Shown piece after piece: positions 4,187-51,549 of a stretch of DNA of 64,000 nt. A model generated the notes under the pieces. That model saw only the letters and a list, made by a program, of their open reading frames with translations. It was not told the origin of the DNA and did not search any database. Source of the DNA: Orobanche coerulescens (Eukaryota > Streptophyta > Magnoliopsida > Lamiales > Orobanchaceae); contig CM065803.1 of assembly GCA_033398695.1 (NCBI GenBank), forward strand, positions 100,676,001-100,740,000. The letters are read 5' to 3'. The position numbers and the translations under genes were made by a program. How positions within the stretch are numbered: the stretch's first letter is position 1; every line of letters starts with the position of its first letter.

Positions 4187-4767
4187 TAGCGCACGCTACG
4201 CCTCCTTCATTAGCGTGCGCTAGCGAAGTTACCGGGTAGTCCAGTGGCTTCTTCCATAAGATGTTAGCGCGCGCTACGAAACATCCTTTGCGTGCGCTAA
4301 CTGCTGCCCTGCCAAAATCTCAGCTTACTGCCTGGGTCCGCTAGCGTGCGTTAATACTAAGCACTAGCGTGCGTTACACCACACATATAGCGTGCGCTAG
4401 CCGTTGCCTAGCGTGCGCTACCTGCTAGTCCAGAAAGTCTGGAACTCCACTGCTTCTACTGACCAAAACATTAGCGTGCGCTACCATTATGCCTTAGCGT
4501 GCGCTACGTAATAGTCCAGAAACCTGACAAACTCACTGCCCCTGCCGACCCGGCCATTAGCGTGCGCTACGGACGGATGTTAGCGTGCGCTACTATCCAT
4601 GGATAGCGCGCGCTAACAAACTCCTAGCGTGCGTTAATCCGCCACCCGCAGAGCACCGGCAATCCGGGTTCGACTGACTGATCCTCTTAGCGCGCGCTAC
4701 GGCTCAGAGCTAGCGTGCGCTAATCAAGCAGAATTAGCGTGTGTTAGCCTAGGCCTAGCGTGCGCTA
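4187..4767 (-). promoter_or_regulatory. Array of 18 palindromes TAGCGYRCGCTA in LTR A
   Basis: Copies of TAGCGTGCGCTA or close variants start at 4187, 4211, 4265, 4288, 4342, 4365, 4388, 4409, 4472, 4495, 4558, 4581, 4604, 4625, 4688, 4711, 4735 and 4756. Spacing within groups is 21-24 bp and between groups 54 or 63 bp. Read in the transcription direction the groups are 4-4-2-4-2-2, and the array ends just before the TATA box. Fragment F (44224-44653) shows the same 4-4-2-4 grouping. No function is established; a regularly phased protein-binding array is inferred. Confidence 0.9.
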
Positions 4768-6057: not shown

Positions 6058-6316
6058 CCACGGCCGAGCCACGGCCGCACTTTGTGGACCAGGTACTGGC
6101 CTGGCCGAGTTATGGCCGTAAGGTGCCAGTTACGGCCGTAAGTGATCGGCAGGCATGGCCTGACGAATGCCGATTACGGCCGTAAGGGCCGAGAGTTACG
6201 GCCGTACGGGTGCGAGGCAGCTTCCGGACGAATGCCGGTTACGGCCGTAAGGACCTGCCGGGTACGGTCGTAAGGGCCGAGTTACGGCCGTAAGGCCCTG
6301 CCGGTTACGTCCGTAA
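6058..6316 (+). promoter_or_regulatory. Array of TTACGGCCGTAA palindromes in LTR G
   Basis: Good copies start at 6110, 6130, 6174, 6196, 6239, 6262, 6282 and 6305, with degenerate CCACGGCCG copies at about 6058 and 6069. Spacings are 20, 44, 22, 43, 23, 20 and 23 bp. The proximal 23-20-23 group resembles the 23-18-23 group of other LTRs, but the word differs. Confidence 0.88.
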
Positions 6317-11346: not shown

Positions 11347-11663
11347 TAACGTACGCAACAGAATGATCATAACGTACGTAAAATGCCAAGCCGAACATAC
11401 ATATGTAGAATTGATAACGTACGTAATGCGAAGGTTCTGAGTTCAAACAATATGAACATTGGAAATAACGTCATGGCATAGGTCAGCAAGCAATGGACAT
11501 ATTGACCTTATTTAACGTACGTAAAGCGGTGTTGATAACCTACGCAAGTAAAGAAACGAATGCAACTGGACTGAATCTGGTACGTGCTAACGTATGTAAC
11601 GAGAAAGATATAATGTACGTAAATAAGATAGCGTACGTAATGTAAAGGTGATAGCGGCCGTAA
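11347..11663 (+). promoter_or_regulatory. TACGTACGTA palindrome array in copia LTR I
   Basis: TAACGTACGTAA-like words start at 11347, 11370, 11415, 11513, 11536, 11588, 11611, 11629 and 11652. The final word is TAGCGGCCGTAA. Proximal spacing is 23-52-23-18-23 bp, the same as in Ty3 LTRs B and C. The distal set fits a 23-bp ladder with one degenerate rung near 11392. Confidence 0.9.
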
Positions 11664-12246: not shown

Positions 12247-12970
12247 TGTGCGGAAGCGCGAAAATAAAGTGCAGAAATTAAACGACACAAGGATTTATAG
12301 AGGTTCGGCTATAATCAAGCCTACGTCCTCTCTCGGTATCTTTTTCTATAGGTTGAAGATAAAAACCTCTGCACCTCTCTTCTATCAGTCGAGGGATAAC
12401 CGCTACAATCACGTCTTCTATTGGTCCGTGATAAACCACTCATACTTGTCTTTGTGTCGGTCCAAGTTAAACCGTTTTCCTTTTCTATCGGACAAGGAAT
12501 CAATTGCTCTAGCTTTCTATCGGTACTAGATAAACCTCACTAAGATTGCGATTGCGATTCTAATAATGCCGGATCCTTGATCCTAATAACACCGAATCCA
12601 ATCGTATCTTTTCTTCAACCTCTCGTGTATATGTTGAATGTATAAACACTCAAACTAACAATATAAGCTCAATATTACAACAATAAGAATATCAATATGA
12701 ATATCTGATCAATGAGTCGTTTGCTTTGCGTTGTTGTATGGAATAATACCAAGGATATGGTATTTATAGGCTTCATCAACCAAACTAGCCATTGCCTCTT
12801 CAGACTGCATTACGACCGTTATCTTCCTCACATTACGTACGCTAACATGATTATGCACGTTAACCTCTTTCCCTTATGTACGTTAGCAAGTACCAGATTC
12901 AGTCCAGTAACATTCGTTTCTTTCCTTACGTACATTATCAACAACCTATTACGTACGTTAAGTGTACGTC
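12247..12970 (-). repeat. 3' LTR of I', left piece
   Basis: Reverse complement of the downstream part of LTR I, up to the point where element C is inserted; acgtc at 12966-12970 is duplicated at 45120-45124. The piece includes the proximal palindromes (around 12834-12960) and the TATA (minus, around 12760). Confidence 0.88.
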
Positions 12971-14364: not shown

Positions 14365-14518
14365 TTACGAACGTTAGCCACAGGTAGCTAACGTACGTTA
14401 GCTTGTTAACGTACGTAAGCTACCCCATGCTTACGTACGTAACGAAAATCGCAGAATTCCCTGTACTATTTTACACACACCATTACGTACGTAACAGAAA
14501 CATGCATTACGTACGTAA
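14365..14518 (-). promoter_or_regulatory. TTACGTACGTAA palindrome array in LTR C
   Basis: Words start at 14365 (degenerate TTACGAACGTTA), 14389, 14407, 14431, 14483 and 14507. From the TATA outward the spacings are 24, 18, 24, 52, 24, matching B, K, I and I'. Confidence 0.92.
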
Positions 14519-26799: not shown

Positions 26800-26804
26800 C
26801 GAAC

Positions 26805-29014
26805 TGTAATGCCCGGATAAATGGTGTATTTACCTTGTATTCGACCTTGTATTATTTCGACTTCATGATGTTATAAATCATAGACTGGTTTCCCGTATTT
26901 CGTATCCTTACGTTTAGGGTATCTATGATTCGCATGCATGTTTACGCGCGTGTTAACGTCGTTATCGACGGCCATAACGTGCGCTAAGATCGCAGATACG
27001 ACGTTATCTTAAGTGGTTAACGACGTAAGCTAAGTCAACTTGGGATCGGATAAGGGTCGGCGTGTGGGGGCCGAGGAAGGGGCCGGGAAGATCCGTGTGA
27101 TTTCGAATGAACACGGACATAGGTGTTACGACGCTATGGTTCATGTTTAACGACGCTAAGGACATGGATATTACGTCGTAAAACCCTTTTCGATTACGAC
27201 GTAAGGAAATGGCGAAATCAGGCCGGTGAGTTCGGTCGATGACTACGACGCTATAGTTAGGGTATAACGTACGTTAAGCTTATTACGTACGTAAGGTTTA
27301 TTGCATAACGTACGTAATGTCCAGAATTCTATTTATAGACTTCGACCCTATTTCATTTCTCACCTTTCTTTTGGCCGATTTTTCGTGTTCTGGAGATCTT
27401 TCATCACCTCTTATCCTCCCTATCATCTTTTGGGACGATTCTTGGGAAGCATAGGCCTTGTAGATTGGTGTTCAAACTTCCGGTGGTTGAGTTTGTTCAA
27501 GTTCTTCCTTGTTCATCTATTTGTTGAGGTATGTGATCTTTCACCAACTAATTTTAGCATGATCTTAGTAATGCTTTGGACCTGTTTTGAGTAGGCCAAA
27601 CCAGTTTTCTTTTGAGGAGCCTTTCATCTTGGTTTAGAAGATTGAATTCAATTATTTTCGATTCCTCTTGATTGTAGTAATCGTTGAACAACCTCTATTG
27701 ATTAGACTATTGATTAGTGTATCTTGAGATTTATAAACCCATCATATCTAGTTTTCGAAGATTATCTTAGTCTAGGAGAATGTTTTGATCGAACATTTTC
27801 GGTGAAGGATTAATGGATTGAACTTAAGGATTAATTCGTAGAAGGAGATTTGGAACTAGTCTTTATGATAATTCATCAAGTTCGGATATCTTGTTATTAT
27901 AAAACATGATTAGAATCCTCCTAGGTTGTATTCCATGTTTTGTTGCAACAATAAACCGAAGGAATTGTGTTAGACAGAATAGTCCATCGCCATAATAGAT
28001 GCACCATGCCTCCTTATGATTCATTTGATGATTTCAACGATTATCCGGAACTATGGGTCATACCGACGATATTCTTTGAAGAAGGTATGCATTTAGGTGA
28101 GCCGACCGAGTGAGAATTCTCCGAACGAATTGAAGACTGTTGATAGTAGAAATTCTTGTCGCCATTGTTGAGGCAAGTATCGTATTTGAAAGTTTGTGAG
28201 AAATTGTTGAATTTGATCATGCATATGGTTTATTCGTATTGTTGATATGAGATTATCATTACAATTGCTATCGAGTTAACATACGTTCACATTGATGAAT
28301 ATGTCGATTTTCTTGCATATGTATATGCATAGTTGTGTTTATGTGTAAGTTGTGATGATCCGATGGGATCAAGCGATCTATGCTGAGGGCGCTGGATCGG
28401 ATGTCCACCTCGTGTTGATCCGACGGGATCATCTTGGGATCTAGGCTGAGGGCGCTGGATCATTGGACGGGTTTTTTCACCTCGTGTTGGTCCGACGGGA
28501 TCATCTTGGGATCTATGCTGAGGGCGCTGGATCGTTGGAATACCCATGTTGTGTTGATTGAATCTCGTGGATTCGTATTGGTGGATTCCGGTAGTGGAAG
28601 TCCATATTGTGTATGATTTTATGCATAGTTGTTGCATATTGGTGTGTTCCGATACTTGTACTAGCATTGTTTTGCTAACCCCCTCGGGGGTGGACATTTG
28701 TTTTGATGTTCAGGTAGCCGAGGAGCGGGGAAGCAGCCACAGTACCATCATGACGATGAAGTTGCTCAGTGATGTTAGTCGTTTGTCGTCTTTGTGATTT
28801 GTCTTCTTGGTCTTTTTTTTTTCTAGTACTCGAGTACGCGTGTCTTTTTAAGATCATTTCGATATGGTTGTAATATAACTGTTGGAATCAATTTGCTATT
28901 TGGATTTCGGTGATATTATTGGTTTATATTTACATTTCTTTTAATCAGCCTTGTAAATCCTTACTTAAAGGATTTACGGCGCTGTAATTATTCCGATTAT
29001 TTCGGGGTGTTACA
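26805..29014 (+). repeat. 5' LTR of element B
   Basis: TGTAATGCCCGG...GGGGTGTTACA, 2,210 bp. It has a TATA (TATTTATA) at 27330-27337 and, at about 28350-28540, three copies of a repeat with GATCCGACGGGATCA and CTGAGGGCGCTGGATC. Confidence 0.95.
26954..27317 (+). promoter_or_regulatory. Altered palindrome array in 5' LTR of B
   Basis: Only the last three CGTACG words (starting 27265, 27283, 27306) are intact. Of the nine upstream positions, eight have CGTACG shortened to CGACG or CGTCG relative to the 3' LTR; the ninth is the variant word TAACGTGCGCTA. Confidence 0.88.
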
Positions 29015-29019
29015 GAATA

Positions 29020-29031
29020 TGGTATCGGAGC
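29020..29031 (+). other. PBS of element B (tRNA-iMet type)
   Basis: TGGTATCGGAGC, five bases after the LTR end. Confidence 0.93.
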
Positions 29032-29258
29032 TAAGATTCATGGATATCTTGGCAGTCGGGTTAGTTGGGTCTGTTTACGTTATTTGATTTTTGGTCGTTT
29101 GTAACATCACTGCTGAGCCAGCATCGTCATGTGGACCGTGGTTGTGAGTTTCCTAATCTCGAATACTACCGTTTTATTTAATTCATGTCTTGTAATCATT
29201 GACGGATGTATCCTTAGAAAGTTTGCCCTGGATATTGAGTATTTGTGTTTACAGTATG

Positions 29259-30459
29259 TTGAGAGGAGGTCGTGGACGCGGACGCGGTCGTGGACGCGGA
29301 CGTGGAAATGCGAGGCAAGAAGAGTCGGTATCTACCCCAGAGATAACCGCTAGTCGAACGGATTCCCATTCCGGGGGACAGCAGGGATCGGCAAATAATG
29401 ATGCAGACCCTAACATGCCAGGAGTGCTTCAGCAGGTGGTTGCTCAAATAAACCAGTTTGCTTAAGTTGTTGATCGCATGCAGACGGCGATGGGACAGCA
29501 GCATAACATGGATAATCGGGGAGATAAATGGCTTACTGAGGTGATCAAATTGCATCCTCCGAAATTTGACGGTTCTGTGGAGACGCTTTCTTGGGATCAC
29601 TGGCTGATAGAATTAGAGAAGATTTTTGCGGGGATTAACTGTCCCAACGATAGGAAGGTTCCGATCGCCAGATCTTCTCGACAGGGGAGGCTGACCGGTG
29701 GGAGGCCATTCGACCGGAGGAGCACAATGTTGACTGGACGGAATTCAAATTGATGATGGAAGCGCAGTATTGTCCTCGCCCAGTTAGAGAGGCCCGAGTC
29801 CGGGAGTTTTTCTCACCACAAAATTCAGAAGCATCTGTGACAGACGTGATTAAGACTTTTAATCACCAGTTGACTTATGTGCGTCACTTGGTCAGGACCG
29901 AGGCAGAGAGGATTTTTCATTTTGACATGCGGATGAAGCCGGAGATTCAACAATATATGTCCGGATTTGAATGCACCACCCTACGGCAGTATCAGGACAA
30001 GGCGCTGGCCTATGATATGAAAGAGGCGGCAGTCGAGAAGTCAACAGAAGCAAAGAAGCAGAAAGTGTCTGGTAACTTCTCGGAAAACAAGAATGGTGGG
30101 CCCCGCATGCGCCTTCATTTTATTCATCTAGGAAACCTCCACATCCTTCTCGAGGTGGCAAGAAGTTCCGGACAACATCAGTAGTTTCGGACGCATCAAA
30201 GAAATGCTATAATTGTGGTCGAGCAGGGCATGTTCGACGTGATTGCCCCGCATCTTCTGTGACTTGTTTCGATTGTGGGCAAGAAGGGCACCGTGCGGCT
30301 TTACGTGGAGGCTGCGAATAGATCTTATGGCACCCGCAATCTGGCGCCAAGACCGAAGGAGGTGAGTGTGAACCGCAGACACAGAGTTGGTTTCAGCAGC
30401 AGAATGTTGGGAAGAGAGAGACATCCAGTGCTGGGTCCGTTCCTCCGCGCCTATACGAG
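29259..30459 (+). pseudogene. Element B gag, broken
   Basis: Starts MLRGGRGRGRGRGRGRG, giving a Gly-Arg-rich head like Gag A. There is an in-frame stop at 29463, then the capsid segment IKLHPPKFDGSVETLSWDHWLIELEKIF. A frame break comes after RKVPIA, where relatives have the EAxxWW motif, and capsid resumes at about 29750 (EAQYCPRPVREARVREFF). Two knuckles follow: CYNCGRAGHVRRDC at about 30209-30250 and CFDCGQEGHRAA... at about 30268. At least one stop and two frameshifts make it non-functional as read. Confidence 0.9.
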
Positions 30460-31425
30460 ATGAGGAAATCTGACGATCAGAACACTGCTGTTGCATCAGG
30501 TACGATTCAGATCCTTTTGCAACCAGTTAGTGTCTTATTCGATTCAGGAGCTACACATTCTTTCATATCATTAAACTGTGTTAATCGTTTGAAAATCTCG
30601 TGCTTATTTGATTGTGAACCGTATGTTGTGGGTTTGCCGAGCGGAGAGAAAATTGTGGGAACCCTAGAAACTAGAGATTTTCCAGTGTCTATAGGAGGGA
30701 GAAACTGGCCATCAAATCTTATTGTAGTCGACATCCATGGTGACGATTTAATTCTTGGAGACGATTGGCTCAACCGTTATGGAGCTATTTTGAATTACCG
30801 AAAACGAGCCATCTCTATCATTGCCGATGACGGATCTGAACATTTATTCAAAGGATGGAGACCAGGAAGCTCGGGAAAATTGATCAAAGCTATGAAGGCA
30901 GTGAAATTACTGAAGCAGGGTTGTCACGGATTATGGTGCTATGCCATGAAGAAAGAAGAAGGAGTAGAGCTCTCATCTATTCCAGTTGTGAACGAATTCT
31001 CAGATGTATTCCCTGACGAACTACCTGGGTTACCTCCACAGAGAGAAGTAGAGTTTAACATCGAATTAGAGCCAGGAGCCACTCCTATTTCCAGAGCACC
31101 ATACCGTATGGCGCCAACCGAGATGTATGAACTAAAGAAGCAACTGGAGGAATTGTTACAGAAGGGTTACATTCAACCTAGCGTTTCTCCTTGGGGAGCA
31201 CCCGTTCTCTTTGTCCGGAAGAAAGATGGATCCCTCCGATTATGTATTGATTACAGGGAGCTAAACAAGGTGACGATCAAGAACAAGTATCCTATACCTC
31301 GGATCGATGACTTATTTGATCAACTACAGGGGGCTAGAGTATTCTCTAAGATTGACTTGCGATCCGGATATCATCAGCTGAGGATTAAGGAATCGGATAT
31401 ACCGAAATCTGCTTTCGATCTCTGA
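30460..31425 (+). pseudogene. Element B pol: protease and N-terminal RT
   Basis: Encodes protease with [13 protein letters not shown] (about residues 25-37) and ILGDDWL, then RT from [17 protein letters not shown] through [18 protein letters not shown] to [23 protein letters not shown]. It breaks at 31425 by a frameshift just before [16 protein letters not shown], which resumes in another frame and includes the [10 protein letters not shown] catalytic motif at about 31541-31570. Confidence 0.92.
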
Positions 31426-32063
31426 CGGGCATTATGAATTTGTAGTGATGCCATTCGGACTTACCAATGCTCCTGCGGTATTTATGCAGTTGATGAATCG
31501 GGTATTCTTAGAATACTTAGATAAGTTCGTGGTCGTTTTCATTGATGACATCTTGATCTATTCGAAAGACCCAGGAACATCTTGAACATTTGCGTATTGT
31601 TCCGAGCACCTTGAGAAATGAACAGTTGTATGCGAAACTTTCTAAATGTGAGTTATGGCTTAAGGAAGTGACTTTCCTTGGGCATGTGATATCATCTGAC
31701 GGAGTTCAAGTAGATCCGAAGAAAGTCGAGGCAATCTTGGAGTGGGAATCTCCAAATAATGTGAAAGAAGTGCGGAGTTTCTTAGGACTTGCGGGATATT
31801 ATCGCCGTTTCGTGGAGGGATTTTCCAAAATTGCTCGTCCGCTCACTCGGCTATTACGTAAAACTCATAAGTTCGAGTGGAATGAGAAATGCCAGGCTAG
31901 TTTTGATGATCTCAAGAGGAGACTGACAGCGCCTATACTAGCGTTACCGGATGGAACCGATGGATTCATGGTATACAACGATGCTTCAAACCAGGGTCCG
32001 GGATGTGTGTTGATGCAAAAGGGTAAGGTGATCGCCTATGCTTCTCGGCACCAAACCGTATGA
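31426..32063 (+). pseudogene. Element B pol: RT C-terminal part and RNase H start
   Basis: Contains the YxDD-equivalent FIDDIL, then [19 protein letters not shown] and [22 protein letters not shown]. RNase H begins with [27 protein letters not shown] frameshift near 32050 breaks the RNase H domain; it resumes downstream. Confidence 0.9.
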
Positions 32064-33860
32064 AGTTAATTACCCGACTCATGATCCGGAGCTAGCACTG
32101 TGGTCTTTGCTTTAAAAATTTGGCGACATTACTTGTACGGCACTCGTTGTCGATCTTTACCGATCACAAGAGCCTCAAATATATTTTCACTGAAGGAATT
32201 AAATATGAGGCAGAGAAGGTGGCTGGAATTGATCAAGGATTACGATTTGGAGATCCTTTATCATCCAGGCAAAGCAAACGTGGTAGCTGATGCACTGAGC
32301 CGAAAACCTGTTTCTATTCGAGTGTTGGAAGCACTTACATCCCAAACCAACTTGCAACGAGAGCTAATTCGTGAAGGAATTGAAGTGTGGTCGCAAGGAG
32401 TCCAGGGACAATTGTGCGTGATGGAACTAACTTCGTCGTTGGTTGAAGAAGTCAAATCTAAGCAGTTGGATGACTCTCTGATTCTTCGATTGCGTGACGA
32501 AGTAAAGAAAGGAAAAGCCCCAGGATTCGTGGTACAAGATGATGGAGTTCTGAGATTTCAGAATCGACTTTGCGTTCCCGATGCTGATAATTTGAGACGG
32601 ACAATTCTGAAGGAAGCTCATAGCGCGCCTTATTCTATTCACCCGGGGAGCAGTAAGATGTATAAGGATCTAAAACAAAACTTCTGGTGGGGGAATATGA
32701 AAAAGGACGTGGCAGAATATGTTTCAAAATGTTTGACTTGTCGTGAGTTAAGATTGAACATCGGCGACACTGGAATGTTAAAACCGCTTCCGATTCCTGA
32801 GTGGAAGTGGGAGGATATCTCGATGGACTTCATCACCAATATGCCTAGGACCAAGACGGGAATGAACATGATTTGGGTTATAGTTGATCGACTAACCAAA
32901 TCGGCTCATTTCCTAGGAATTAAAGACACATGGGGACCCGAGAGATTGGCGCGAGTATTTATTACGGAGATAGTCAGATTGCATGAGACGCCGAAGACCA
33001 TTATTTCGGATCGAGATGGCCGTTTCGTGTCGCATTTTTGGAAGGCAGTTCATAGGGCTCTGGGACCGAGCTGAACTTTAGCACGGCTTATCATCCTCAG
33101 ACGGACGGGCGATCTGAAAGGACTATTCAGACAGTAGAAGACATGCTTAGAGCTTGTGCCTTGGATTGGTCGATCGACCGGGAAGTTCACTTGCCGTTGA
33201 TTGAATTCACATATAACAATAGTTGGCATGCTTCTATTAAGATGGCACCGTCAAGCTTTGTACGGAAGGAGATGTCGATCACCCCTATCTTTGGGATGAT
33301 TCTTCGGACTTGATTGAACGGAACCGGAATTGATAGTCCAGACTCAAGAGAAGATAGCTTTGATTCGAGAAAGACTGTTGGCGCCTGAGTCGGCGAAGTC
33401 TTATGCAGATGTACGTCGTCGCCCTCTAGAGTTCGACATTGGGGACCACGTACTATTGAAGGTGTCTCCTACACGAGGGATTTTCCGTTTTGGGAGGAAG
33501 GGCAAACTAAGTCCGAGATATATCGGACCATTTGAAATCCTCGAGAGAGTTGGGGATTTAGCATACAGGTTGGCCTTACCACCATCGCTGAGTCACGTTC
33601 ACAGTGTGTTTCATGTATCCCAATTACGGAAGTATGTGCCAGATCCCAATCATGTTATTGATTTCGACGAGATTGAGATAGCTAATGACGGAACCTTCGA
33701 AGAGCGACCAATCAAGATACTAGAGAGACGAGTCAAGCAGTTGAGGAATAAACCGATCTCCCTGGTGAAAATTCAGTGGTCTCGACATGGAGTCGAAGAA
33801 GCCACTTGGGAGACAGAGGAGAGTATGAAGTCGAGATACCCGGAATTGTTTTCGTTTTAA
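32064..33860 (+). pseudogene. Element B pol: RNase H end, integrase, C-terminal tail
   Basis: RNase H ends with [30 protein letters not shown]. Integrase follows: zinc region [13 protein letters not shown] ... CLTC, first Asp in DFITNMP, second in SDRDGRF, a frame break at about 33074, then Glu in DGRSERTIQ. From 33330 to 33860 the frame is open through SPRYIGPFEIL to the C-terminal VKIQWSRHGVEEATWE, ending ESMKSRYPELFSF. That tail resembles the chromodomain-like end of Tekay-type elements. Confidence 0.9.
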
Positions 33861-33883
33861 GTTTCGGGCCGAAACTTCTTTTT

Positions 33884-33893
33884 AGAGGGGTAG
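33884..33893 (+). other. Polypurine tract of element B
   Basis: AGAGGGGTAG immediately before the 3' LTR, the plus-strand primer site. Confidence 0.8.
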
Positions 33894-33895
33894 TA

Positions 33896-36131
33896 TGTAA
33901 TGCCCGGATAAATGGTGTATTTACCTTGTATTCGACCTTGTATTATTTCGACTTCATGATGTTATAAATCATAGACTGGTTTCCCGTATTTCGTATCCTT
34001 ACGTTTAGGGTATCTATGATTCGCATGCATGTTTCTGCACGTGTTAACGTACGTTATCAGACGGCCATAACGTGCGCTAAGACTGCAGTATTACGTACGT
34101 TATCTTAAGTGGTTAACGTACGTAAGCTAAGTCAACTTGGGATCGGATAAGGGTCGGCGTGTGGGGGCCGAGGAAGGGGCCGAGGAAGGGGCCGGGGAAG
34201 ATCCGTGTGATTTCCGAATGAACCTGGACATAGGTGTTACGTACGCTATGGTTCATGTTTAACGTACGCTAAGGACATGGATATTACGTACGTAAAACCC
34301 TTTTCGATTACGTACGTAAGGAAATGGCGAAATCAGGCCAGTGAGTTCTGGTCAGATGACTACGTACGCTATAGTTAGGGTATAACGTACGTTAAGCTTA
34401 TTACGTACGTAAGGTTTATTGCATAACGTACGTAATGTCCAGAATTCTATTTATAGACTTCGACCCTATTTCATTTCTCACCTTTCTTTTGGCCGATTTT
34501 TCGTGTTCTGGAGATCTTTCATCACCTCTTATCCTCCCTATCATCTTTTGGGACGATTCTTGGGAAGCATAGGCCTTGTAGATTGGTGTTCAAACTTCCG
34601 GTGGTTGAGTTTGTTCAAGTTCTTCCTTGTTCATCTATTTGTTGAGGTATGTGATCTTTCACCAACTAATTTTAGCATGATCTTAGTAATGCTTTGGACT
34701 GTTTTGAGTAGGCCAAACCAGTTTTCTTTTGAGGAGCCTTTCATCTTGGTTTAGAAGATTGAATTCAATTATTTTCGATTCCTCTTGATTGTAGTAATCG
34801 TTGAGCAACCTCTATTGATTAGACTATTGATTAGTGTATCTTGAGATTTATAAACCCATCATATCTAGTTTTCGAAGATTATCTTAGTCTAGGAGAATGT
34901 TTTGATCGAACATTTTCGGTGAAGGATTAATGGATTGAACTTAAGGATTAATTCGTAGAAGGAGATTTGGAACTAGTCTTTATGATAATTCATCGAAGTT
35001 CGGATATCTTGTTATTATAAAACATGATTAGAATCCTCCTAGGATGAATTCCATGTTATGTAGCAACAATCAACCGAAGGAATTGTGTTAGGACAGAATA
35101 GTCCATCGCCATAATAGATGCACCATGCCTCCTTATGATTCATTTGATGATTTCAACGATTATCCGGAACTATGGGTCATACCGACGTTATTGTTTGATG
35201 AAGGTTTGCATTCGGTGAGCCGACCGAGTGAGAATTCTAAGAACGAATTGAAGACTGTTGATAGTAGAAATTCTTGTCGCCATTGTTGAGGCAAGTATCG
35301 TATTTGAAAGTTTGTGAGAAATTGTTGAATTTGATCATGCATATGGTTTATTCGTATTGTTGATATGAGATTATCATTACAATTGCTATCGAGTTAACAT
35401 ACGTTCACATTGATGAATATGTCGATTTTCTTGCATATGTATATGCATAGTTGTGTTTATGTGTAAGTTGTGATGATCCGATGGGATCAAGCGATCTATG
35501 CTGAGGGCGCTGGATCGGATGTCCACCTCGTGTTGATCCGACGGGATCATCTTGGGATCTAGGCTGAGGGCGCTGGATCATTGGACGGGTTTTTTTCACC
35601 TCGTGTTGGTCCGACGGGATCAACTTGGGATCTATGCTGAGGGCGCTGGATCGTTGGAATACCCATGTTGTGTTGATTGAATCTCGTGGATTCGTATTGG
35701 TGGATTTCGGTAGTGGAAGTCCATATTGTGTATGATTTTATGCATAGTTGTTGCATATTGGTGTGTTCCGATACTTGTACTAGCATTGTTTTGCTAACCC
35801 CCTCGGGGGTGGACATTTGTTTTGATGTTCAGGTAGCCGAGGAGCGGGGAAGCAGCCACAGTACCATCATGACGATGAAGTTGCTCAGTGATGTTAGTCG
35901 TTTGTCGTCTTTGTGATTTGTCTTCTTGGTCTTTTTTTTCTAGTACTCGAGTACGCGTGTCTTTTTAAGATCATTTCGATATGGTTGTAATATAACTGTT
36001 GGAATCAATTTGCTATTTGGATTTCGGTGATATTATTGGTTTATATTTACATTTCTTTTAATCAGCCTTGTAAATCCTTACTTAAAGGATTTACGGCGCT
36101 GTAATTATTCCGATTATTTCGGGGTGTTACA
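33896..36131 (+). repeat. 3' LTR of element B
   Basis: 2,236 bp with the same termini as the 5' LTR, plus a 13-bp duplication (ccgaggaagggg) at about 34170-34185. TATA at 34448-34455. Confidence 0.95.
34045..34435 (+). promoter_or_regulatory. Intact 12-copy palindrome array in 3' LTR of B
   Basis: TAACGTACGTTA-like words start at 34045, 34068, 34091, 34114; 34237, 34260, 34284, 34308; 34360, 34383, 34401, 34424. They form three groups of four, mostly at 23 bp, with 52 bp between the last two groups. The last word ends 12 bp before TATTTATA. This is the clearest example of the array type in the window. Confidence 0.95.
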
Positions 36132-36136
36132 CGAAC

Positions 36137-39662: not shown

Positions 39663-40319
39663 TCAAAGGGAGAGGAATGAATCCACTTTTCGTTTTCTCA
39701 CGGTGAGATCTTCCATCCAGACAATATTAGCTAGAGCTGGATCTGCTTGAGGAACAAATTCAGTGAGTTTTTTTATTAGCTCTTCTGGTGTTGTTGCAAC
39801 GACTATGATTCGTTTAGCATGCTCGGAAATAAAACCATTTTCAGCAGAGTAGTCGATGAAAGATAGTAAACCATCAAAGAAACCATTGACATTAAGCAGA
39901 CCTATTGGTTTTTTATGAACATTTAGCTGGGCTCTGCTAACCACATGAAAAAGTTCCTCAAGGGTGCCAAAACCACCGGGAAGGGTGATAAAGGCGCCAG
40001 AATTATTTATCATGTGAGTTATGCGATCTTGCATATTTACAGATCTAAACTCATCTCCAATAGTTGCCCCGGTGATTTTACTTTCAGCCAGAGGTTTTGG
40101 AATTATTCCCAACACTCTTACTCCTTCCATATAGGCAGAAGCAGTAGCTCGTCCCATTAATCCTAGACTTCCTCCTCCGTAAACTACATGAATGCATTTT
40201 TTTCCTAAAGTACGACCCAAGTTGTGGGCTGCTTCAGTAAAGCATGCCTCTTTTCCATAACTAGCTCCACCAAAAATGCAGACTGAGTTAAATCTTTTTG
40301 TGGAAGATGATGATTCCAT
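39663..40319 (-). CDS. LOG-like: LONELY GUY-type cytokinin riboside 5'-monophosphate phosphoribohydrolase
   Basis: A 218-residue protein, the usual length for plant LOG enzymes. The start at 40319 (MESSSSTKRF) is preferred; an in-frame ATG at 40394 would add 25 hydrophobic residues. The Rossmann-type fold shows CIFGGASYG (residues 14-22) and VVYGGGSLGLMG (45-56). The catalytic region has an Arg in MQDRITHM (residue 99) and the signature PGGFGTLEE (114-122). Family members release free cytokinin bases from their riboside monophosphates in cytosol and nucleus. The ORF has no introns, whereas plant LOG genes normally have several. It lies inside element D, between the 181-residue ORF and the 3' tandem repeats, with its own TATA box. 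Activity is inferred; the variant MQDRITHM in place of the common HQRKAEM could alter it. Confidence 0.92.
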   Translation of the reverse strand: MESSSSTKRFNSVCIFGGASYGKEACFTEAAHNLGRTLGKKCIHVVYGGGSLGLMGRATASAYMEGVRVLGIIPKPLAESKITGATIGDEFRSVNMQDRITHMINNSGAFITLPGGFGTLEELFHVVSRAQLNVHKKPIGLLNVNGFFDGLLSFIDYSAENGFISEHAKRIIVVATTPEELIKKLTEFVPQADPALANIVWMEDLTVRKRKVDSFLSL

Positions 40320-40400
40320 TTTTGAAAAGAAATTTATTTGAGAGAAAAAGGAAAAAAAGTACAAGTTTGAGGGATGAATAAAAGAAACAAGCACAATGTT

Positions 40401-40408
40401 TATTTATA
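40401..40408 (-). promoter_or_regulatory. TATA box upstream of the LOG gene
   Basis: Minus strand CTATAAATAAA, 82-89 bp before the LOG start codon. This implies a short leader of about 50 nt. It suggests a private promoter rather than use of the LTR promoter alone. Confidence 0.65.
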
Positions 40409-40629: not shown

Positions 40630-41175
40630 CTATGAGTCGGGGAGAAGCTTCCCATCCAATTTTCTTACAAATTGGCAAACAGGGTCTTTTAACGTCAGAT
40701 TCCCAAGACGTTGTTCATATTCTGGTTTGAATTTATTCCACAAACATCGAATTCCGTAATGTACGAGTCCACTAGGATGCGTGTCAAGAGTAATTTCGAT
40801 ATTATCTAAATTCTCTTTATTAAGACCATCCTTAATGAACTGAATTTTATCTTCTCTGTTTGTAGATGGAATTCTTAAAGATCGACATTTTAAATTACAG
40901 TTCCATCTAGCACATTTATAGCAAACAGCTATTATCTTTGCTCGGCGTTTCTTTGCATATGAACTTTTTCCAAGCCCTGGTAAAAATCTAGTAGGTGTTT
41001 CCGTGAATTCACCTGCTATTCTCACTTTTGCTTCAATAATGAATCTAATATCAAAAGGTATGCTTTTATTCATAATCAACCTCATCCTTTCAAGTCTTGT
41101 CTTGTAAATTTTTAAAATGACTTTTTTGCTAAGAAAGGGAAATCTCTTTTCCATACTACTCAAAGTTTCTTCCAT
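40630..41175 (-). CDS. Unknown 181-residue protein in element D
   Basis: Not recognised. It sits where gag would be expected, about 210 bp after the PBS, and 310 bp upstream of the LOG start. It begins MEETLSSMEKRFPFLSKK, is rich in Lys and Ile, and has a basic KKRRAK stretch (residues 75-80). A four-cysteine cluster follows, CYKCARWNCNLKC (Cys85, 88, 93, 97; C-x2-C-x4-C-x3-C), which could bind zinc but is not the CCHC knuckle of Gag. The C-terminal half has LDTHPSGLVHYGIRCLW. No signal peptide or membrane segment. It could be an element-specific ORF, a capture like the LOG gene, or a remnant of host DNA. Confidence 0.6.
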   Translation of the reverse strand: MEETLSSMEKRFPFLSKKVILKIYKTRLERMRLIMNKSIPFDIRFIIEAKVRIAGEFTETPTRFLPGLGKSSYAKKRRAKIIAVCYKCARWNCNLKCRSLRIPSTNREDKIQFIKDGLNKENLDNIEITLDTHPSGLVHYGIRCLWNKFKPEYEQRLGNLTLKDPVCQFVRKLDGKLLPDS

Positions 41176-41382
41176 GATAAATAAAATAAAATAAAATAAA
41201 AAGAGAAAATATTAACAAATATTAGTTGTTGTGGGAAACTGAAAAAGCCGACTTCGATAGTCACGGAGTACCGTTATCCGCCACTTGACCGGACAGAAGA
41301 ATAAAAGATGCAGAAATATAGAAAGATAAAATAACAAGATATAAACAAAAGTATACAAAAAATTATATTTGGCCTAAAACAA
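41176..41382 (-). other. 5' untranslated leader of element D
   Basis: Between the PBS and the 181-residue ORF; AT-rich, including an (aaaat)n run at about 41180-41205. No other coding signal seen. Confidence 0.6.
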
Positions 41383-43981: not shown

Positions 43982-44687
43982 TGTAATATCCGCATTTTTC
44001 TTTCCCTTGTATTTTCATTTCGGTGTATTTCTCGATCGTAGTGACCCCGTGTACCCTTCAGTGTATCTTTCCCGTCATCTATTGACCTGATTCTCGTTAT
44101 TGTTGTACGGAACTGCTGTTTCGGGGTTGCCATGGATCCATTTTATGTTTTGATGCGTTTTGAGATGTTCCATTTGATGTTTCGTTCATATTCCGGTGTT
44201 TTGGACCGTTTATATTCCGTATCTAGCTCACGCTAAATTTTCTGCATAGTGCACGCTATAGGTCCCTTAGTAGCACACGCTACGTTTACTTCGTAGTGCG
44301 CGCTAGCGAGTTAGCCCTGGGAGTGGCAGTTCTGTTCCCAGCCCTCTGGACTATCGGATTAGCGCACGCTACTTTGTCTAGCGCACGCTAATATCGGGAG
44401 ACTAGCGCACGTTAAGTTGTTCGGTAGCGCGCGCTAGCGTGATCGGCCCAAGATCGACAGCTTTACTATCGAACTCGGTCAGCGCTCGTAGCGCACGCTA
44501 CGTTTGTACGATAGCGCACGCTAACGGGTCAGGTGAGTTTTGGGCAGTTAGCTTCTGGACTCGGCTGATGTCCAGGTAGCGCACGCTATTGGTCGATAGC
44601 GCGCGCTACCGAGAAGTTATTAGCGCACGCTACGTTTCGAGTAGCGCACGCTAACGGCCAGGAATCTGGCTACTGGATTGGGACGCT
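43982..44687 (+). repeat. Fragment F: 5' part of a Ty3 LTR, head-to-head with LTR C
   Basis: Starts TGTAATATCCGC in plus orientation, related to but distinct from LTR C, and ends after its palindrome array at a join with the oppositely oriented piece of LTR C (shared acg at the junction). No TATA or 3' end is present. It replaces the missing gag-RT region of C. Confidence 0.85.
44224..44653 (+). promoter_or_regulatory. TAGCGCACGCTA palindrome array in fragment F
   Basis: Fourteen words start at 44224, 44247, 44271, 44294; 44360, 44379, 44403, 44425; 44489, 44512; 44577, 44597, 44621, 44642. The 4-4-2-4 grouping with ~65-bp gaps equals the first four groups of LTR A in its own direction. Confidence 0.92.
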
Positions 44688-45119
44688 AAAGGACTCGAGG
44701 CGACGAACTTAAGTGTTGAAGGAAAACATATTCCCAACTACCCAAAGGTTCGGAAAAATAACAACAAACGTAATTATCCCAAAACTTTGGGAATTTACAA
44801 AACGGCCCAAAGCATCCGAAATGTACGATACATGGTCGAAACATCAAAAAGAAGCTCACAACACGAATAATAACGTGATATGGATCCTCGGCAACCCCGA
44901 AACGGCGGTTCCGAACGATGACTTACGAGAATACCCGAAATAGCGACGGAAACAACATAAAACACTGAATCGAGTAAAACGAGTCCGAAATAAGCTCGAA
45001 CGACAAAAAGTCCAATATTAAATATCCTCGAAATGTCAATACGGTTACAAGCGAGTTGCCAAAAATGAAAATACACCAAAATGAGAATATCAAGAGAAAG
45101 GAAAAATGCGGATATTACA
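44688..45119 (-). repeat. 5' LTR of element C, surviving outer piece
   Basis: Close match to 14614-15045, with intact terminus (minus TGTAATATCC), followed by TSD acgtc at 45120. Confidence 0.92.
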
Positions 45120-45411: not shown

Positions 45412-46332
45412 ATCTCCCCCTTTTTAATGATTACAAAACAACACTTCGTCAATGGCATTTACCTGCAAAAATACAAATATATGTATATGTGTACAGACCA
45501 AAGTTTTCGACTTTGTCCATTTCGTTAGTTTCTTCTCCCATTTCCTTTTCAACTCCTTCTTTCCTTTTCTTTTTCTTTCAACTTCCATTTTTCTTTTTCA
45601 ACTTCAACTTTTCGACTTATCTTCGATTTTTCTCCTCCTTTCAGGGTTTATCCCATTCTCTTTTCTCCCCCTTCTTGTTTTCATCAAAAAGTGTAAAAAA
45701 AAATATAATGATACCAAATATAAAATATGCATGATACCAAATGATGAATATAACTATATGTATGAATAGGGTATAAACTCCCCCTGAAAATATTATCTCC
45801 CCTTATAAAAAATTACTCCCCCTAAGTAAAATATAGTTTGATAAAAAATAATTTTTGGGGATCCAACCGAGAGTTGGTTTTTCATTTGAAACATAGACGA
45901 TATTTGAAATATTTACTCCTTTAGGAACCCAAATATTTTTTATTTTAATCGTCCGTGTTGGGCTTTTGCAATTAGAAATGTGGTGCCCAATTTTCAAACA
46001 TTTGTCACATCGGGGTATTTTTAAATTTAAGGATTCGTTTTTAGAACGAGGTGTGAATCCCAACCCCTATTTATTTAAAGTGAACTTTTGAACCGAGAGC
46101 ATATTTTCAAATTTCTCGTTTCCGAGATAAAATTTCTTTGTTAAAATTTTGAGCTCGGTTTGAATTTTAACAAGATCATCCATTAAAATATTTTCGTTTT
46201 CAAGGCATTTAGAATGATCGATCTCAACAGATTTTCCCTTTTCAAGAATTTTGAAATCTCATTTTCCAAAGATTTATTTTTAAATTGAAGGGATTTAATT
46301 TCGGATAAAGCATTTTGATAGTCCGTATGCAA
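45412..46332 (-). other. Non-coding remainder of I' with second knuckle
   Basis: Counterpart of 10270-11212. A short frame at 45803-46063 encodes CDKCLKIGHHISNC and a WVPKG-like segment. A purine-rich (minus) low-complexity tract is at about 45500-45690. It is separated from gag by stops; the TAG just before the second knuckle region is shared with I. No pol domain. Confidence 0.75.
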
Positions 46333-47236
46333 TCATTCAAATGCTTCAAAAAGTTCGTCGTAAGTATTACTTACTTGGCTTTCGACGTCGCTATCATCGA
46401 ATGAACTTCGGGCCATGAGAGCGAGATTATTTTGATTGATAAAATCATCATCTTCGTCTTCATCGCTCCATGTTACAACGAGGACCTCCTTCTTGGGATT
46501 AGCTCGGCAATTCTTTGCAAAGTGGCCTGGTTTTCCACATAATCGACAAGAGTTATCGAATTTCTTAGATTCGACCGAGATGTCTTTCATTCTCCGGTTT
46601 AATAAGGTTTGAAACTTATTAATATTCTTGGCAAAATATGCCGATTCTGCGTCACTATCATCCGCCGGAATTTCTTCTCTCTTTGACATCTTAGCCTTCA
46701 AGGCTATCGATCTTTCCTTCGGATTCGGTTTGGCATTCCGAGATTTAAGGACAATCTCATAATTTATTAGTGAACCAACAAGGGCACTCAAATCAAGATT
46801 ATTGAGATCTTTCGATTCCATAATCGCCATCACCGTTCCGTCCCATTCAACAGGTAGTGATCTTAAGATTTTCTTGACCTTTTCACTACTTGATAATGGT
46901 TTTCCGAACGAAGCTAGTCCATTGGTGATGACTGAAAATCGGTCGAGCATATTGGTGATGGACTCGTCACCCTTCATCATGAATAGCTCGTAGTCATGGA
47001 GAAGCATATTGATCTTCGTCTCCTTGACTTGAGTTGTCCCTTCGTGTGTGATTTCAAGAACTTTCCATATCTCTTTAGCACTTTCACACGATGAGATTCG
47101 ATTGACCTCTTCCGAATTTAAGGCACAATATAAGAGTTGAGTAGCCTTACAATTTAGATGGTCGTTCTTCCAATCCTCGTCATTATATTCTTCGAAACTT
47201 TTAAGAGATCCGTCAGATTTGATTGGATTTTTCGGG
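46333..47236 (-). pseudogene. I' Gag, N-terminus split by LINE O
   Basis: Same UBN2-type capsid as I, from LGPKNPIKSDG, with a CCHC knuckle CRLCGKPGHFAKNC and an acidic tail. LINE O is inserted in the codons for the IICLGP segment. The upstream part (NRPPFFDG... to IICL) lies at 48069-48170 on the minus strand and, unlike in I, keeps the frame through the T run. The first 17 residues of the present reading frame are read from LINE sequence. Confidence 0.9.
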
Positions 47237-48068
47237 CCAAGACAAACCAAACCAAACCAAACCAAACATACCCAGTATATCCCGCTCATAGCAGGGTCTG
47301 GGGAGGGTAAGATGTACGCAGACCATGCCTCTACTTATTACAGTAGGGAGGCTGTTTCCGTGAAGACCCCTATCTTAGTGCACAGCAGAATATTGAGTGA
47401 TAAATACACAAAAAAAGCATATGATTCTAAAAAGCTCGATACCATACCTGAGCCCATGGCATAATCCACATGGGACTTACCTAAGCGGATTTTGGCTACT
47501 TCACTCCCAATGAACGCTGCTCTAACAGAAGAGAGGTTGGCTCAACGCACAGCTCCCTGTCAAAAATACACCACATGCAAAGACAATAGGATAAAATATA
47601 TAATAAAAGTAAAAAAATACAATGCTCTAGGTCAAAGCTAATCGAGACAACCCAACCCTGAGGCTCTCAACTACATCACCGCTCCCTACAAAAGAATCTA
47701 CAACTCTGATCTGGCGCCTCCAAGCACACCTATCAACAGTCATGGTCTCGGAAAGGTTTAAGGCCTTCAAATCTAATCTCAGCTGCTCCTCCCACGTCCT
47801 CCTAGGTCTGCCTCTCCTCCTCTCCCCGACAACCAATAAACTCTCGACCCTCCTAACCGGAGCAGATGCCAGCCTCCTGCGGACGTGGACAAACCATCTC
47901 AATCTCCCTTCCCTAACTTTCGCTGAAATGGGCGCCACTTCCAGCGCGTTCCTGAAAACCCCGTTCGCGATTCTATCTAACATCGTGCGACTACATGACC
48001 AACGTAACATTCTCATTTCAGCCACTTCCAACTTGATCTCAAGCGACTTATTCATCGCCCAAGACAAA
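47237..48068 (-). mobile_element. LINE O: 5'-truncated RTE-type retrotransposon
   Basis: Body 47247-48058 (about 0.8 kb), flanked by a 10-bp TSD ccaagacaaa (47237-47246 and 48059-48068). On the minus strand it ends with the tail ...gatatactgggtatgtttgg and a (GTTTG)n run. That 3' end is characteristic of plant RTE LINEs. Insertion into gag of I' postdates that element. Confidence 0.88.
47627..48058 (-). pseudogene. RTE LINE reverse-transcriptase C-terminal fragment
   Basis: Encodes the C-terminal region of plant RTE proteins: EVAEMRMLRWSC, DRIANGVFRNALEVAPISAKVREGRLRWFVHV, and GRPRRTWEEQLRLDLKALNL with DRCAWRRQIRV. The RT and endonuclease domains are absent because of 5' truncation. An upstream in-frame ATG at 48079 is in flanking sequence. 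Confidence 0.87.
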
Positions 48069-48246
48069 TGATCTTCCAAATTTCTATATCATAGGCACGA
48101 ATGAAGATCGACATCTTTTTCTTCCACGTCATGAAATTTGCGCCATCAAAAAATGGTGGTCGGTTAAGAGCAAGGCCTTTAACTAGAGCAAATTGGAACA
48201 CCATTGGATCTTCTCCTTGGATGTTAATCCGTGTATTGGAGGTACC

Positions 48247-48258: not shown

Positions 48259-48260
48259 AT

Positions 48261-49300
48261 TGTTGGTGCAAAATCGGAATATGCACCGTTGTGCGGAAGC
48301 GCGAAAATAAAGTGCGAAAATTAAACGACACAAGGATTTATAGAGGTTCGGCTATAATCGATCCTACATCCTCTCTCGATATCTTTTTCTATAGGTTGAA
48401 GATAAAAACCTCTGCACCTCTCTTCTATCGGTCGAGGGATAACCGTTACAATCACGTCTTCTATTGGTCCGTGATAAACCACTTGTACTTGTCTTTGGGT
48501 CTGTCCAAGTTAAACCGTTTTCCTTTTCTATCGGACAAGGAATCAACCGCTCTAGCTCTATATCGGTACTTGATAAACCTGAGTAAGATAGCGATTGCGA
48601 TTCTAATAATGCCAGATCCTTGATCCAAATAACACCAAATCCAATCGTATCTTTTCTTTTACCTCTCGTGTATATATTGAATGTATAAACACTCAAACTA
48701 ACAATATATGCTCAATATTACAACAAGAAGAATATCAATATGAATATCTGATCAATGAGTCGTTTGCTTTGCGTTGTTGTATGGAATAATACCAAGGATA
48801 TGGTATTTATACGCTTCATTAACAAAACTAGCCATTGCCTCTTCAGACTGCATTACGGCCGTTATCTTCCTCACATTACGTACGCTAACATGATTACGTA
48901 CGTTAACCTCTTTCCCTTATGTACGTTAGCAAGTACCAGATTCAGTCTAGTAACATTCGTTTCTTTCCTTACGTACGTTATCAACAACCCATTACATACG
49001 TTAAGTGTACGTCATTGCTGACGTCATATATCCGTTGCCGCCTTTTTGACTTTGACTCTTCCCAACGTTCATCTGATTTGAACACCATTACGTATGTTAA
49101 CTTACATTTCTTACGTAAGTTAAATGCCTTATATTACGTACGTTATTGCTCCTTCATTACGTACGTTAAGCATGCAATTTCCAGCTTTTTGCACTTTGTC
49201 TTCTTCGATGCTTTCCTTCGTCTTTTTGTTGTTTTGTTTTGTGTAACAACTTAATCATCAAAACATTATTAATACATGTATGGAACAAAATGTTCCAACA
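48261..49300 (-). repeat. 5' LTR of I'
   Basis: 1,040 bp, minus strand TGTTGGAACATTTTG...TTGCACCAACA. TATA (minus TATAAATA) at 48804-48811. Confidence 0.92.
48853..49168 (-). promoter_or_regulatory. Palindrome array in copia LTR I'
   Basis: Words start at 48853 (TTACGGCCGTTA), 48876, 48894, 48917; 48969, 48992; 49088, 49111, 49134, 49157. Spacings are 23-18-23, 52, 23, 96, 23-23-23. This equals Ty3 LTR B and K in the proximal group, the 52-bp gap and the distal 23-23-23 ladder. Confidence 0.93.
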
Positions 49301-51549
49301 CTATAGATTCCCATGATGATCCCGTCGGACCAACACATGGTGGACGAACAACTACAATGCACAACTGCATAAAACAACAATACACAAATGCACGATAACA
49401 ACAATACATGAATGTATCACAACATGATCGACACTAAATGATAAAAATGATTAGAGTACTTGCCCGAGTCTTTCGAGAGCAATCTCGATGTCAAAATCAT
49501 CAGTAACAATTTCCTCAATATTCTACAATCCAAAAGTACCACGGACGGTAAATAACTCATATCCTCGCATTTACCACAATGTATCCTCTATACCCAATTA
49601 TACCAATAATGAATGTAAATCATATACATTACGATTTAACTCCCAAAAATCAGAAAACGACATACAATCCAAATCTCCAGAGTTCACAATAATAATCATT
49701 GCTATATGCATTATAAATGAAATGAAACTGAAACCATTCATTAAATATTATAAACTGAGCAAGTAATAACTTGCTCGATACCGACACGACGATGATGAAG
49801 TCGTTACCACTTTACTTGCCTTCGTATACAAGCTCCTCAGTCCCGGACAAAGCAATTCTCGAACATACTCGAACTCGACCGCAACATATTTTTCTAGTCA
49901 ATGATCAATTATCACAACCTATTGAAGTAATCAATAAACAACAATCCGATAACAATCAATAACCGACATAGCCAACCAATCAAACTCAATGGTTCAATGA
50001 TACCTCGATCATATACATAACCAAATAATCCAACTCAACAAATACGAACTCATATCTACAATATAAACCGCAACTCGATGATCATAATTAACAATCAATA
50101 TAACCGATCAACAAACCCAACGGTTCCACAATATCCCGATTAAACACAAATTCGAACAACCCAAATCAATTAATCACGAATCCATAACCATAATACGATT
50201 CCATAATCTAATAATCATATCAACGATCAACTCATCCCAATAACAAGGATTACATAACATACTCTATTCTGAATTCTACCTCCTAGATGAATTAACAAGA
50301 TTCCTCCTTGTTCATAATTGTAAATTCATGGTAAAATAATATGACCGTCATAATCGACAATTCGAACTATCCAAATAGTTCAATACCATTGACAATCATG
50401 TTCTAAGATTAACCATAATCTTTCCGGATTCATCCTCATTATTATGATTCATATTTCATCAAGAACATATGAAATCAACTACTACAATCAACATAATATT
50501 AGTTTTAATTATCAAATTCATGTTTATAATAAAAACCATTATATATCCTATCACATATTCCTCTTTGATGTGATATATACCAAGAACACCAAGAACACCT
50601 TGACTCCATAATCATGTTCATAACAAACAACATATTGAAGACATATATCATCATATTCTTAAACATACAATTCACATAATCTAAAGAATCACAACAACAA
50701 CACCATAATCATCATCACATGAAGAAAATATCAACAACAACATCAAAATCCAAATTAAAGAGAGGAGTTATCCAACATACCTCTTGAAGAAGAACCATAA
50801 CAATCAAACACTTCAAGAAACATCAAGGATTCCAAACCTCAAGCTTTTAATCAAACCATCAAGGTCTCAACCAAGGTAGAAGGGTCTGGAATAGGCTTAG
50901 AAGTGAAGAGGGACGAAGTTTGGGAGGAAGATATATGTTTCTTCTCATGAAGAAATGAAAGACCGATCCTTATTTTATAACCTGCACAGATCGTTACGTA
51001 CGTTAACACCCAACACTAACATACGTAAGACCTACTAACGTACGCTACATGTCCTACATAGCGTACGTAATCAGCATCCAGAGCTCACTGCCTCATTTCG
51101 TTCGATGCCTTACGTACGTAAGGCCCATGCCATAGCGTACGTAATATTGTCGTTGACTTGCTACAGTAATATACCCATTTAACGTACGTAATGAGCAATT
51201 TGTTGCATACGTTAACCTCTTCGTTGACTTGTCTTTTCGCATGCCAGCCGAAAGTTGCCGACCACGGGACCCACTTGTCGGACACAGCCTGATCCTGTTC
51301 GATTCTCTTCATAACATATGTTATGTACTCTATTTAACGTACGTTACGCTTGCATATTTACGTACGTAATCTCCTACGCTTAACGTACATAATGGCTTTT
51401 ACACTTAGCCATTTACAACTGCTCCTGCATGTCGTCTCAATATACCGAATACGTATACACGACATACTGAATACTATACTTGTCCCACTAACATTCTCAT
51501 ACGATAAGCCTGATACATGATATCCTGAAATATAATTGTCGACCAATTA
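49301..51549 (-). repeat. Element K: Ty3 LTR fragment
   Basis: Minus-strand LTR lacking both ends: cut at 51549 by the LTR of N and at 49301 by I'. It has an array, a TATA (minus TATAAAATA, 50971-50979) and, near 49310-49335, a GTTGGTCCGACGGGATCATC segment as in LTR B. The rest (49340-50940) is AT-rich with no gene seen. Confidence 0.78.
50994..51392 (-). promoter_or_regulatory. Palindrome array in LTR K
   Basis: Words start at 50994, 51017, 51036, 51059; 51110, 51133; 51180, 51203; 51312 (degenerate), 51335, 51358, 51381. Spacings are 23-19-23, 51, 23, 47, 23, 109, 23-23-23. The first word lies 14 bp from the TATA. Confidence 0.92.

Follow-up and report, generated by a model that had tools for sequence, protein, structure and literature searches.

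A 64,000-nucleotide stretch of the Orobanche coerulescens genome (assembly GCA_033398695.1, contig CM065803.1, positions 100,676,001 to 100,740,000), called the window below, contains retrotransposons whose long terminal repeats (LTRs) carry, in their U3 regions and often upstream of a TATA-like motif, arrays of 12-base-pair (bp) words set at closely kept distances. The words come in several dialects, the longer gaps between them hold a second motif, and words and spacing are common to elements of the Ty3/Gypsy and Ty1/Copia superfamilies. Judging from these sequence patterns, we think it rather probable that the arrays are multi-site U3 enhancers for host dimeric DNA-binding proteins, and that both word and spacing are under selection. 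A preliminary description of this DNA had reported the words and part of their spacing; the second motif, the existence of dialects and their use by both Copia and Gypsy elements are additions to it.

Words, spacing and the TATA-like motif

Array B (34045..34435, forward strand) belongs to element B (26805..36131, forward strand), a Ty3/Gypsy chromovirus that is full-length but has interrupted frames, and stands in the U3 of its 3' LTR. As first described, it consists of twelve 12-bp words (NNNCGNNCGNNN); they belong to the first dialect (TAACGTACGTWA type) and start at positions 34045, 34068, 34091 and 34114, then at 34237, 34260, 34284 and 34308, and finally at 34360, 34383, 34401 and 34424. 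Five of the twelve are perfect palindromes, and the remaining words have one to three mismatched pairs. The claim of three groups of four at 23 bp must be amended: the three fours are there, but the distances are 23-23-23, then 123, then 23-24-24, then 52, then 23-18-23, so that the third group departs from an even spacing of 23. The TATA-like motif TATTTATA (34448..34455, forward strand) starts 12 bases past the last word, the distance originally given.

The abundance of the words is far beyond chance, and a chance origin can be rejected. The window contains 76 exact copies of TWRCGNNCGYWA, and 100 dinucleotide shuffles of it contain 0.61 on average and 3 at most; words with inner gaps of 0 to 8 number, in that order, 0, 6, 76, 0, 0, 0, 0, 3 and 1. 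We also used 25 randomly placed 10-kilobase (kb) pieces, of 100 drawn, from coordinate ranges on 16 contigs of the same genome. These random stretches hold 205 exact words in 246.6 kb of readable sequence, compared with a mean of 2.6 and a maximum of 5 in 10 runs of a first-order Markov model. Twenty of the 25 contain the word and 17 contain four or more, with just 6 of the 205 words isolated from any other exact word by more than 140 bp. A density of about 0.8 words per kb in random DNA would mean, for an assembly of 3.65 gigabases, about three million words per genome. Four stretches of viral contigs also contain a pair of first-dialect words at 23 bp.

The two central bases of 241 words, from the window and the first 20 stretches, are CA/TG in 112 cases, TA in 87, CG in 18, GC in 16 and others in 8; the centre is thus TA, CA/TG or CG in 217 words. 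Among words with one mismatch, CpG transitions make up 49 of 80 within 70 bp of an exact word versus 14 of 41 more than 200 bp away, an excess that fits methylated words decaying after insertion.

We defined an array as four or more words, with one mismatch tolerated beside exact words, which yields 40 arrays in the window and the random stretches. With the words masked, spacer similarity divides them into 25 groups, of which 7 hold more than one array (together 22 of the 40), and no spacer aligns between groups at E 1e-3. This spacer-only clustering replaces an earlier one, based on 250 bp of flank, that lumped 27 of the 40 arrays because neighbouring elements chain together. Taking one representative per group, the enrichment that the preliminary description proposed to look for is present: 103 of the 128 gaps of 13-33 bp measure 23 or 24 bp, a departure from uniformity with a nominal binomial P of about 1e-80, gaps within an array being dependent. 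Over all 185 neighbour gaps of the representatives, 81 are of 23 bp and 22 of 24 bp, and the commonest longer gaps are 42-45 bp (10), 50-54 bp (17) and 62-66 bp (11). Word-to-word gaps above 30 bp have a helical tendency, with R 0.53-0.56 at 10.5-11 bp (52 gaps, partly dependent). Since spacing is kept while spacers are unalignable between the 25 groups, recent common descent alone is insufficient to explain it. Recent tandem duplication has left no trace in nine arrays of the window, within which no repeated spacer is found at E 0.1, but one spacer is duplicated in the array L007-4367 of a random stretch, and old duplications may have occurred.

The arrays also tend to end at a short distance from a TATA-like motif. 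Such a motif lies 9-14 bp past the array in 9 of the 25 representatives, versus 2.8% of equally long segments placed at random in these loci (17.9% of these placements have any TATA-like motif), and this excess upholds a position directly upstream of a TATA-like motif as more frequent than under random placement. Fourteen arrays have a motif, and the gap closest to it measures 23 bp in 9 of them, 24 bp in 3, 22 bp in 1 and 50 bp in 1.

Second motif, dialects and two superfamilies

To look for motifs in the long gaps, we trained a search on the window together with the even-numbered loci and tested it on the other loci; it found a 16-mer contained in the dyad AGTCCAGTAGCTACTGGACT. Held-out gaps score 6 or more in 12 of 27 cases, versus 4% of shuffles and 2% of flank pieces. 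For a leave-one-group-out test, four groups of one Copia lineage were merged, leaving 22, and 4 without a suitable gap length were dropped; a score of 8 or more is attained in 14 of the remaining 18 groups, where about 1.7 would be expected. When the whole 20-bp dyad is scored, at least 14 positions match in 21 of 72 gaps, versus 0.07% of shuffles. The preliminary description held that spacers share no obvious sequence: this is right for the short spacers, in which we found no similarity between families, but the long gaps share the second motif.

The position of this motif also seems constrained. Dyads that are nearly complete, with at least 18 of 20 matches, stand halfway along gaps of 64-65 bp, 31-33 bp from both word centres. 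In several groups, including that of array B, gaps of 51-54 bp hold half dyads, whose distance is 31-32 bp to one word centre and 20-23 bp to the other. In the 52-bp gap of array B, the motif reads AGGCCAGTGAGTTCTGGTCA (34335..34354, forward strand), a 14/20 match to AGTCCAGTRGCYACTGGACT, and its centre is separated by 31 bp from the word centre upstream and by 21 bp from that downstream. Seventeen groups have a gap of 48-78 bp; leaving uncounted the 8 with fewer than 13/20 matches, 6 of the other 9 have the motif centre at 31-33 bp from that of a word, where 1.6 would be expected (P 0.0014).

Three dialects can be distinguished: the first, TAACGTACGTTA/TTACGTACGTAA, the second, TAGCGCACGCTA in sense orientation, and the third, TTACGGCCGTAA. 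Most of the 35 arrays listed are dominated by a single dialect, and a few are mixed (L014-19, L009-5202). In oriented arrays, the centre of second-dialect words is CA in 90 and TG in 24. Eleven of the 24 come from one exceptional array, L050, with 1 CA to 11 TG, whose orientation by its TATA-like motif conflicts with its same-strand alignment to array L44 of the window.

The first two dialects occur in both superfamilies. The first is found in the Gypsy element B and in the Copia arrays I and J of the window; the second, in L010, a Gypsy element whose two LTRs each carry second-dialect arrays, and in L007, where an LTR pair, again with second-dialect arrays on both sides, surrounds a Copia gag 81% identical to that of the array I element. 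No word of this form was found in L011, a locus with a Gypsy pol. The proximal spacing 23/24-52-23/24-18-23/24 is likewise common to Gypsy arrays B (24-52-23-18-23) and C (24-52-24-18-24) and to Copia arrays I, I' and J (23-52-23-18-23), and outside the superfamily assignment it reads 23-51-23-19-23 in array K and 23-52-23-18-23 in L009. Its recurrence in C, K, I and I', already noted in the preliminary description, is borne out and extends to J. The distal 23-23-23 ladder attributed to B, K and I' holds for B, and is also found in J; K has only 23-23, with a possible fourth word 23 bp on that carries two mismatches, and I' is cut off before the ladder.

Comparing relatives indicates that the U3 is modular. 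The LTRs of J and L007 are 83% identical over about their first 110 bases and 78-79% identical in R-U5, where I and L007 are 80-82% identical, but J and L007 do not align from about LTR base 120 to the last two words. These two words are at aligned places, in different dialects, and the proximal array of L007 has one word fewer (23-54-20-23). From such a mismatch amid alike R-U5 it follows that either arrays were exchanged, or spacers turn over fast with word and spacing held. The U3 differs amid alike flanking parts in a second pair, C and the neighbour of L44: the C-like distal U3 at 44653-45118 is 97.7% identical to that of C (14613-15043) up to the border of the array, where a different array begins. 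This abrupt change suggests to us that recombination took place at the words or close to them.

Arrays and elements of the window

The other first-dialect arrays of the window vary in their distal parts. Array C (14365..14518, reverse strand) is spaced 24-52-24-18-24, with a TATA-like motif 11 bases on, and is assigned to Gypsy because its LTR starts beside an integrase open reading frame (ORF) at 15056-16549, reverse strand; an extra degenerate word stands nearby, at 14604-14615. Array I (11347..11663, forward strand) is spaced 23-45-98-23-52-23-18-23 within a Ty1/Copia LTR at 11213-12242. Array I' (12810..12960, reverse strand), of the same Copia family and distally cut off, is spaced 23-52-23-18-23. 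Array J (48853..49168, reverse strand), in a Ty1/Copia LTR at 48264-49300, is spaced 23-23-23-96-23-52-23-18-23, and array K (50994..51392, reverse strand), 23-23-132-23-47-23-51-23-19-23, with a TATA-like motif 13 bases on.

Two arrays use the second dialect. Array A (4187..4767, reverse strand) has 18 words in groups separated by 63 and 54 bp, and a TATA-like motif 11 bases on. In array L44 (44224..44653, forward strand), whose LTR start was placed by eye near 43983, no TATA was found; an inverted C-like U3 follows at about 44687. The third dialect is represented by array A2 (6110..6316, forward strand), spaced 20-44-22-43-23-20-23, with a TATA-like motif 12 bases on.

Element B comprises a 5' LTR (26805-29014), gag (29654-30184), frames running from protease to chromodomain (30322-33860) and a 3' LTR (33896-36131). 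It is flanked by the 5-bp target duplication CGAAC (26800-26804 and 36132-36136), and its primer-binding site, after the 5' LTR, resembles what we take to be a tRNA-Met site. Compared with 34030-34382 of the clean 3' LTR, segment 26940-27262 of the 5' LTR has many one-base deletions and small changes at CAG, CTG and CGTACG, and three further copies aligned to this LTR (L055-L057) have the same kind of one-base losses. These losses are probably an artefact of assembly or basecalling at methylated repeats, although a real mutational process may be behind them. They look like the result of uneven polishing of methylated repeats which, if so, could hide or distort some arrays.

The preliminary description had considered a factor encoded by the elements themselves, by analogy with the VANC proteins of VANDAL elements; none was found in the copies examined (B, L010, I and J), which leaves this candidate without support there. 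In element B, all sense ORFs of at least 110 amino acids between the LTRs belong to gag-pol, no spare frame for a factor being found, and two reverse-strand ORFs of 132 amino acids have no convincing domain; a TMEM126-like Pfam match in one of its reverse-strand ORFs (E 0.0097, below the cut-off of that family) was set aside as noise. The sense ORFs of L010 of at least 90 amino acids overlap gag-pol matches: of six scanned, three have pol domains and three have no Pfam domain. In the Copia elements I and J, the sole domains found are gag and its zinc knuckle, with gag alone in the array I element; a lysine-rich ORF of the latter and a 153-amino-acid ORF of J have no Pfam domain. In the Copia elements at 9088-11212 and 45412-48263, gag alone was found, and this gag is matched in 4 of the 25 random stretches (L007, L019, L023 and L049).

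The window also contains, on the reverse strand, an ORF with a carlavirus-type nucleic-acid-binding domain (40630-41211), downstream of which lies an ORF of the cytokinin-activating LOG type (39663-40403). The latter is best matched by proteins of Orobanche hederae, O. gracilis and O. minor, the first with 87% identity over 89% of the query. Two O. gracilis proteins, P0002 and P0040, have both domain sets, carlavirus-type and LOG, in one chain, and LOG-like clusters have up to 328 members.

Possible readers of the words and related systems

If the arrays are enhancers, each 12-bp word would be the site of one protein dimer, with half-sites CGYWA placed 2 bp apart; most words have a flexible pyrimidine-purine step in the middle, as a site read by a DNA-bending dimer would. 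Dimers would dock 23 bp apart, in pairs and fours. A second dimeric factor would bind the dyad AGTCCAGTAGCTACTGGACT or one half of it, in many cases some three helical turns away from the middle of a word. Ending close to the TATA, this assembly would drive the element's transcription and might, in addition, hold the promoter open in the face of DNA methylation. These proteins would most likely be host transcription factors with at least two related specificities, corresponding to the dialects, to which elements of both superfamilies would have adapted through U3 exchange or rapid turnover, selection keeping word and spacing while spacers drift. Activation, possibly with anti-silencing, seems the likeliest function, because selection keeps activating sites and would remove silencing sites. 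Since both superfamilies use the words, the factor would act in trans, and its simplest source would be a family of proteins encoded by the host. Of the phased platform for a dimeric, CpG-sensitive protein that was first proposed, the dyad words at kept spacing, some of them methylated-looking, are supported, and the VANC-like factor is not.

Several observations weigh against this enhancer reading. The second motif does not reach a score of 8 in four of the 18 groups (L007-334, L008-3808, L014-19 and L021), all six of its best sites (at least 18 of 20) belong to a single spacer group, and three of the 9 groups with good matches, L050, L007-399 and L051, have them away from 31-33 bp. The TATA-like motif lies at 25-41 bp in 5 of the 25 representatives, and 11 have none within 48 bp of the array; in the Copia arrays I, I', J and L024 it is found at 27-41 bp. 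Words of this form are missing from L022, a Gypsy element whose LTRs are 99% identical, and the dialects could reflect unrelated factors. In favour of the reading, in B and 20 of its 40 genome matches, mostly the best-scoring and with some partner LTRs skipped, substitutions number 11 in 3024 cells at word sites and 54 in 5355 in spacers (Fisher P 0.001 if cells are independent), but this support is weak, because the 21 copies are young, partly related and among the best-scoring.

It is also conceivable, though we hold it only tentatively, that the retrotransposons of both superfamilies share one promoter code, made of two kinds of dyad sites at near-fixed distances and in switchable dialects, and read by a small dimeric family that may be devoted to, or captured by, mobile elements, the switching of dialects recording an arms race over the readers. 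Rather unlikely, in our opinion, is a VANC-like factor encoded by a mobile element, binding the words and acting in trans on many elements as an anti-silencer. The words are CpG-rich, dialects differ within one Copia lineage, and the arrays differ between related elements, as passages of PMC5735166 describe for VANC targets. However, the words are common to unrelated superfamilies, and there is neither a spare factor ORF in B or L010 nor more than gag domains in I and J, the search being limited to these copies.

We doubt that the host reads the words to silence the elements by nucleating heterochromatin or methylation. The CpG-to-TpG/CpA decay of words does suggest methylation, and the density of words in randomly placed DNA would suit such a role, but selection on the elements should purge the sites. 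Instead, word and spacing are common to families with different spacers, and arrays often end just before a TATA-like motif. A spacing inherited by common descent or array exchange, and devoid of present function, is slightly less credible still. In its favour, C and the U3 beside L44 are nearly identical up to arrays that differ, which points to U3 exchange or fast turnover, and more than half of the arrays fall in spacer groups with several members. Yet spacing is kept to about one base between groups whose spacers do not align, dialects differ at aligned places in one lineage, and CpG words should decay faster than spacers, not slower. Very improbable, lastly, is a role of DNA structure (small hairpins, nucleosome exclusion) or of a 23-24 nucleotide small-RNA phase in place of a sequence-reading protein: palindromes and the spacing mode of 23, then 24, would agree with it, but the word is a specific one whose inner gap is 2, and neither hairpins nor small-RNA length explain the second motif and the gaps of 18, 52 and 64 bp.

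Repeated sites for one protein are familiar from other systems. The insulator of the Drosophila gypsy retrotransposon has about a dozen sites for one host protein, Su(Hw); it belongs to a single element, and is not known to form a dialect code common to superfamilies. EBNA1 of Epstein-Barr virus binds as a dimer, and oriP needs a fixed spacing of EBNA1 sites. The EBNA1 site region at the Qp promoter of this virus holds the same 12 letters as a second-dialect word, TAGCGTGCGCTA, according to part of the text of PMC2921154. The likeness to EBNA1 is in the way of working only, without relation of host or sequence context; we took the occurrence of the word in Epstein-Barr virus papers as a coincidence, which the match of letters probably is. 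Among the open-access papers whose text contains the words, no title is on retrotransposons.

Closer comparisons come from plant mobile elements. In the Tnt1 superfamily, Copia elements of Solanaceae, passages of PMC1838419 describe a U3 that varies between subfamilies while the rest of the element is alike, and passages of PMC3316501 describe BII boxes that bind defence-induced factors. Here too, as with J and L007, the regulatory U3 is modular and relatives are alike elsewhere; however, the string 'palindrom' is absent from the main text of both papers, and those passages mention no syntax shared with Gypsy. In ONSEN/COPIA78 and other heat-responsive Copia LTRs, clusters of HSF sites accompany transcription and evolve repeatedly, with adjacent nGAAn sites within 5 bp in four Copia families, according to passages of PMC5059998. 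The arrays described here differ in that their 12-bp CpG words mostly stand at a distance of 23 bp, in having a second motif, and in occurring in two superfamilies. VANDAL elements resemble them in the dense short motifs of their non-coding DNA, which differ between relatives (passages of PMC5735166), but the present arrays have a fixed spacing, and no factor was found in the copies examined. A spaced-dyad syntax common to Copia and Gypsy does not appear in the passages of PMC1838419, PMC3316501, PMC5059998 and PMC5735166, a weak absence that covers open-access literature only.

The promoters of retrotransposons are generally regarded as quick to change, particular to each family and loose in construction. 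In these arrays, two superfamilies share a word, a near-exact spacing and a second motif, while the spacers between the words do not align. The arrays thus constitute a natural, heavily replicated experiment on enhancer grammar, and offer a handle on the host proteins that selfish elements use.
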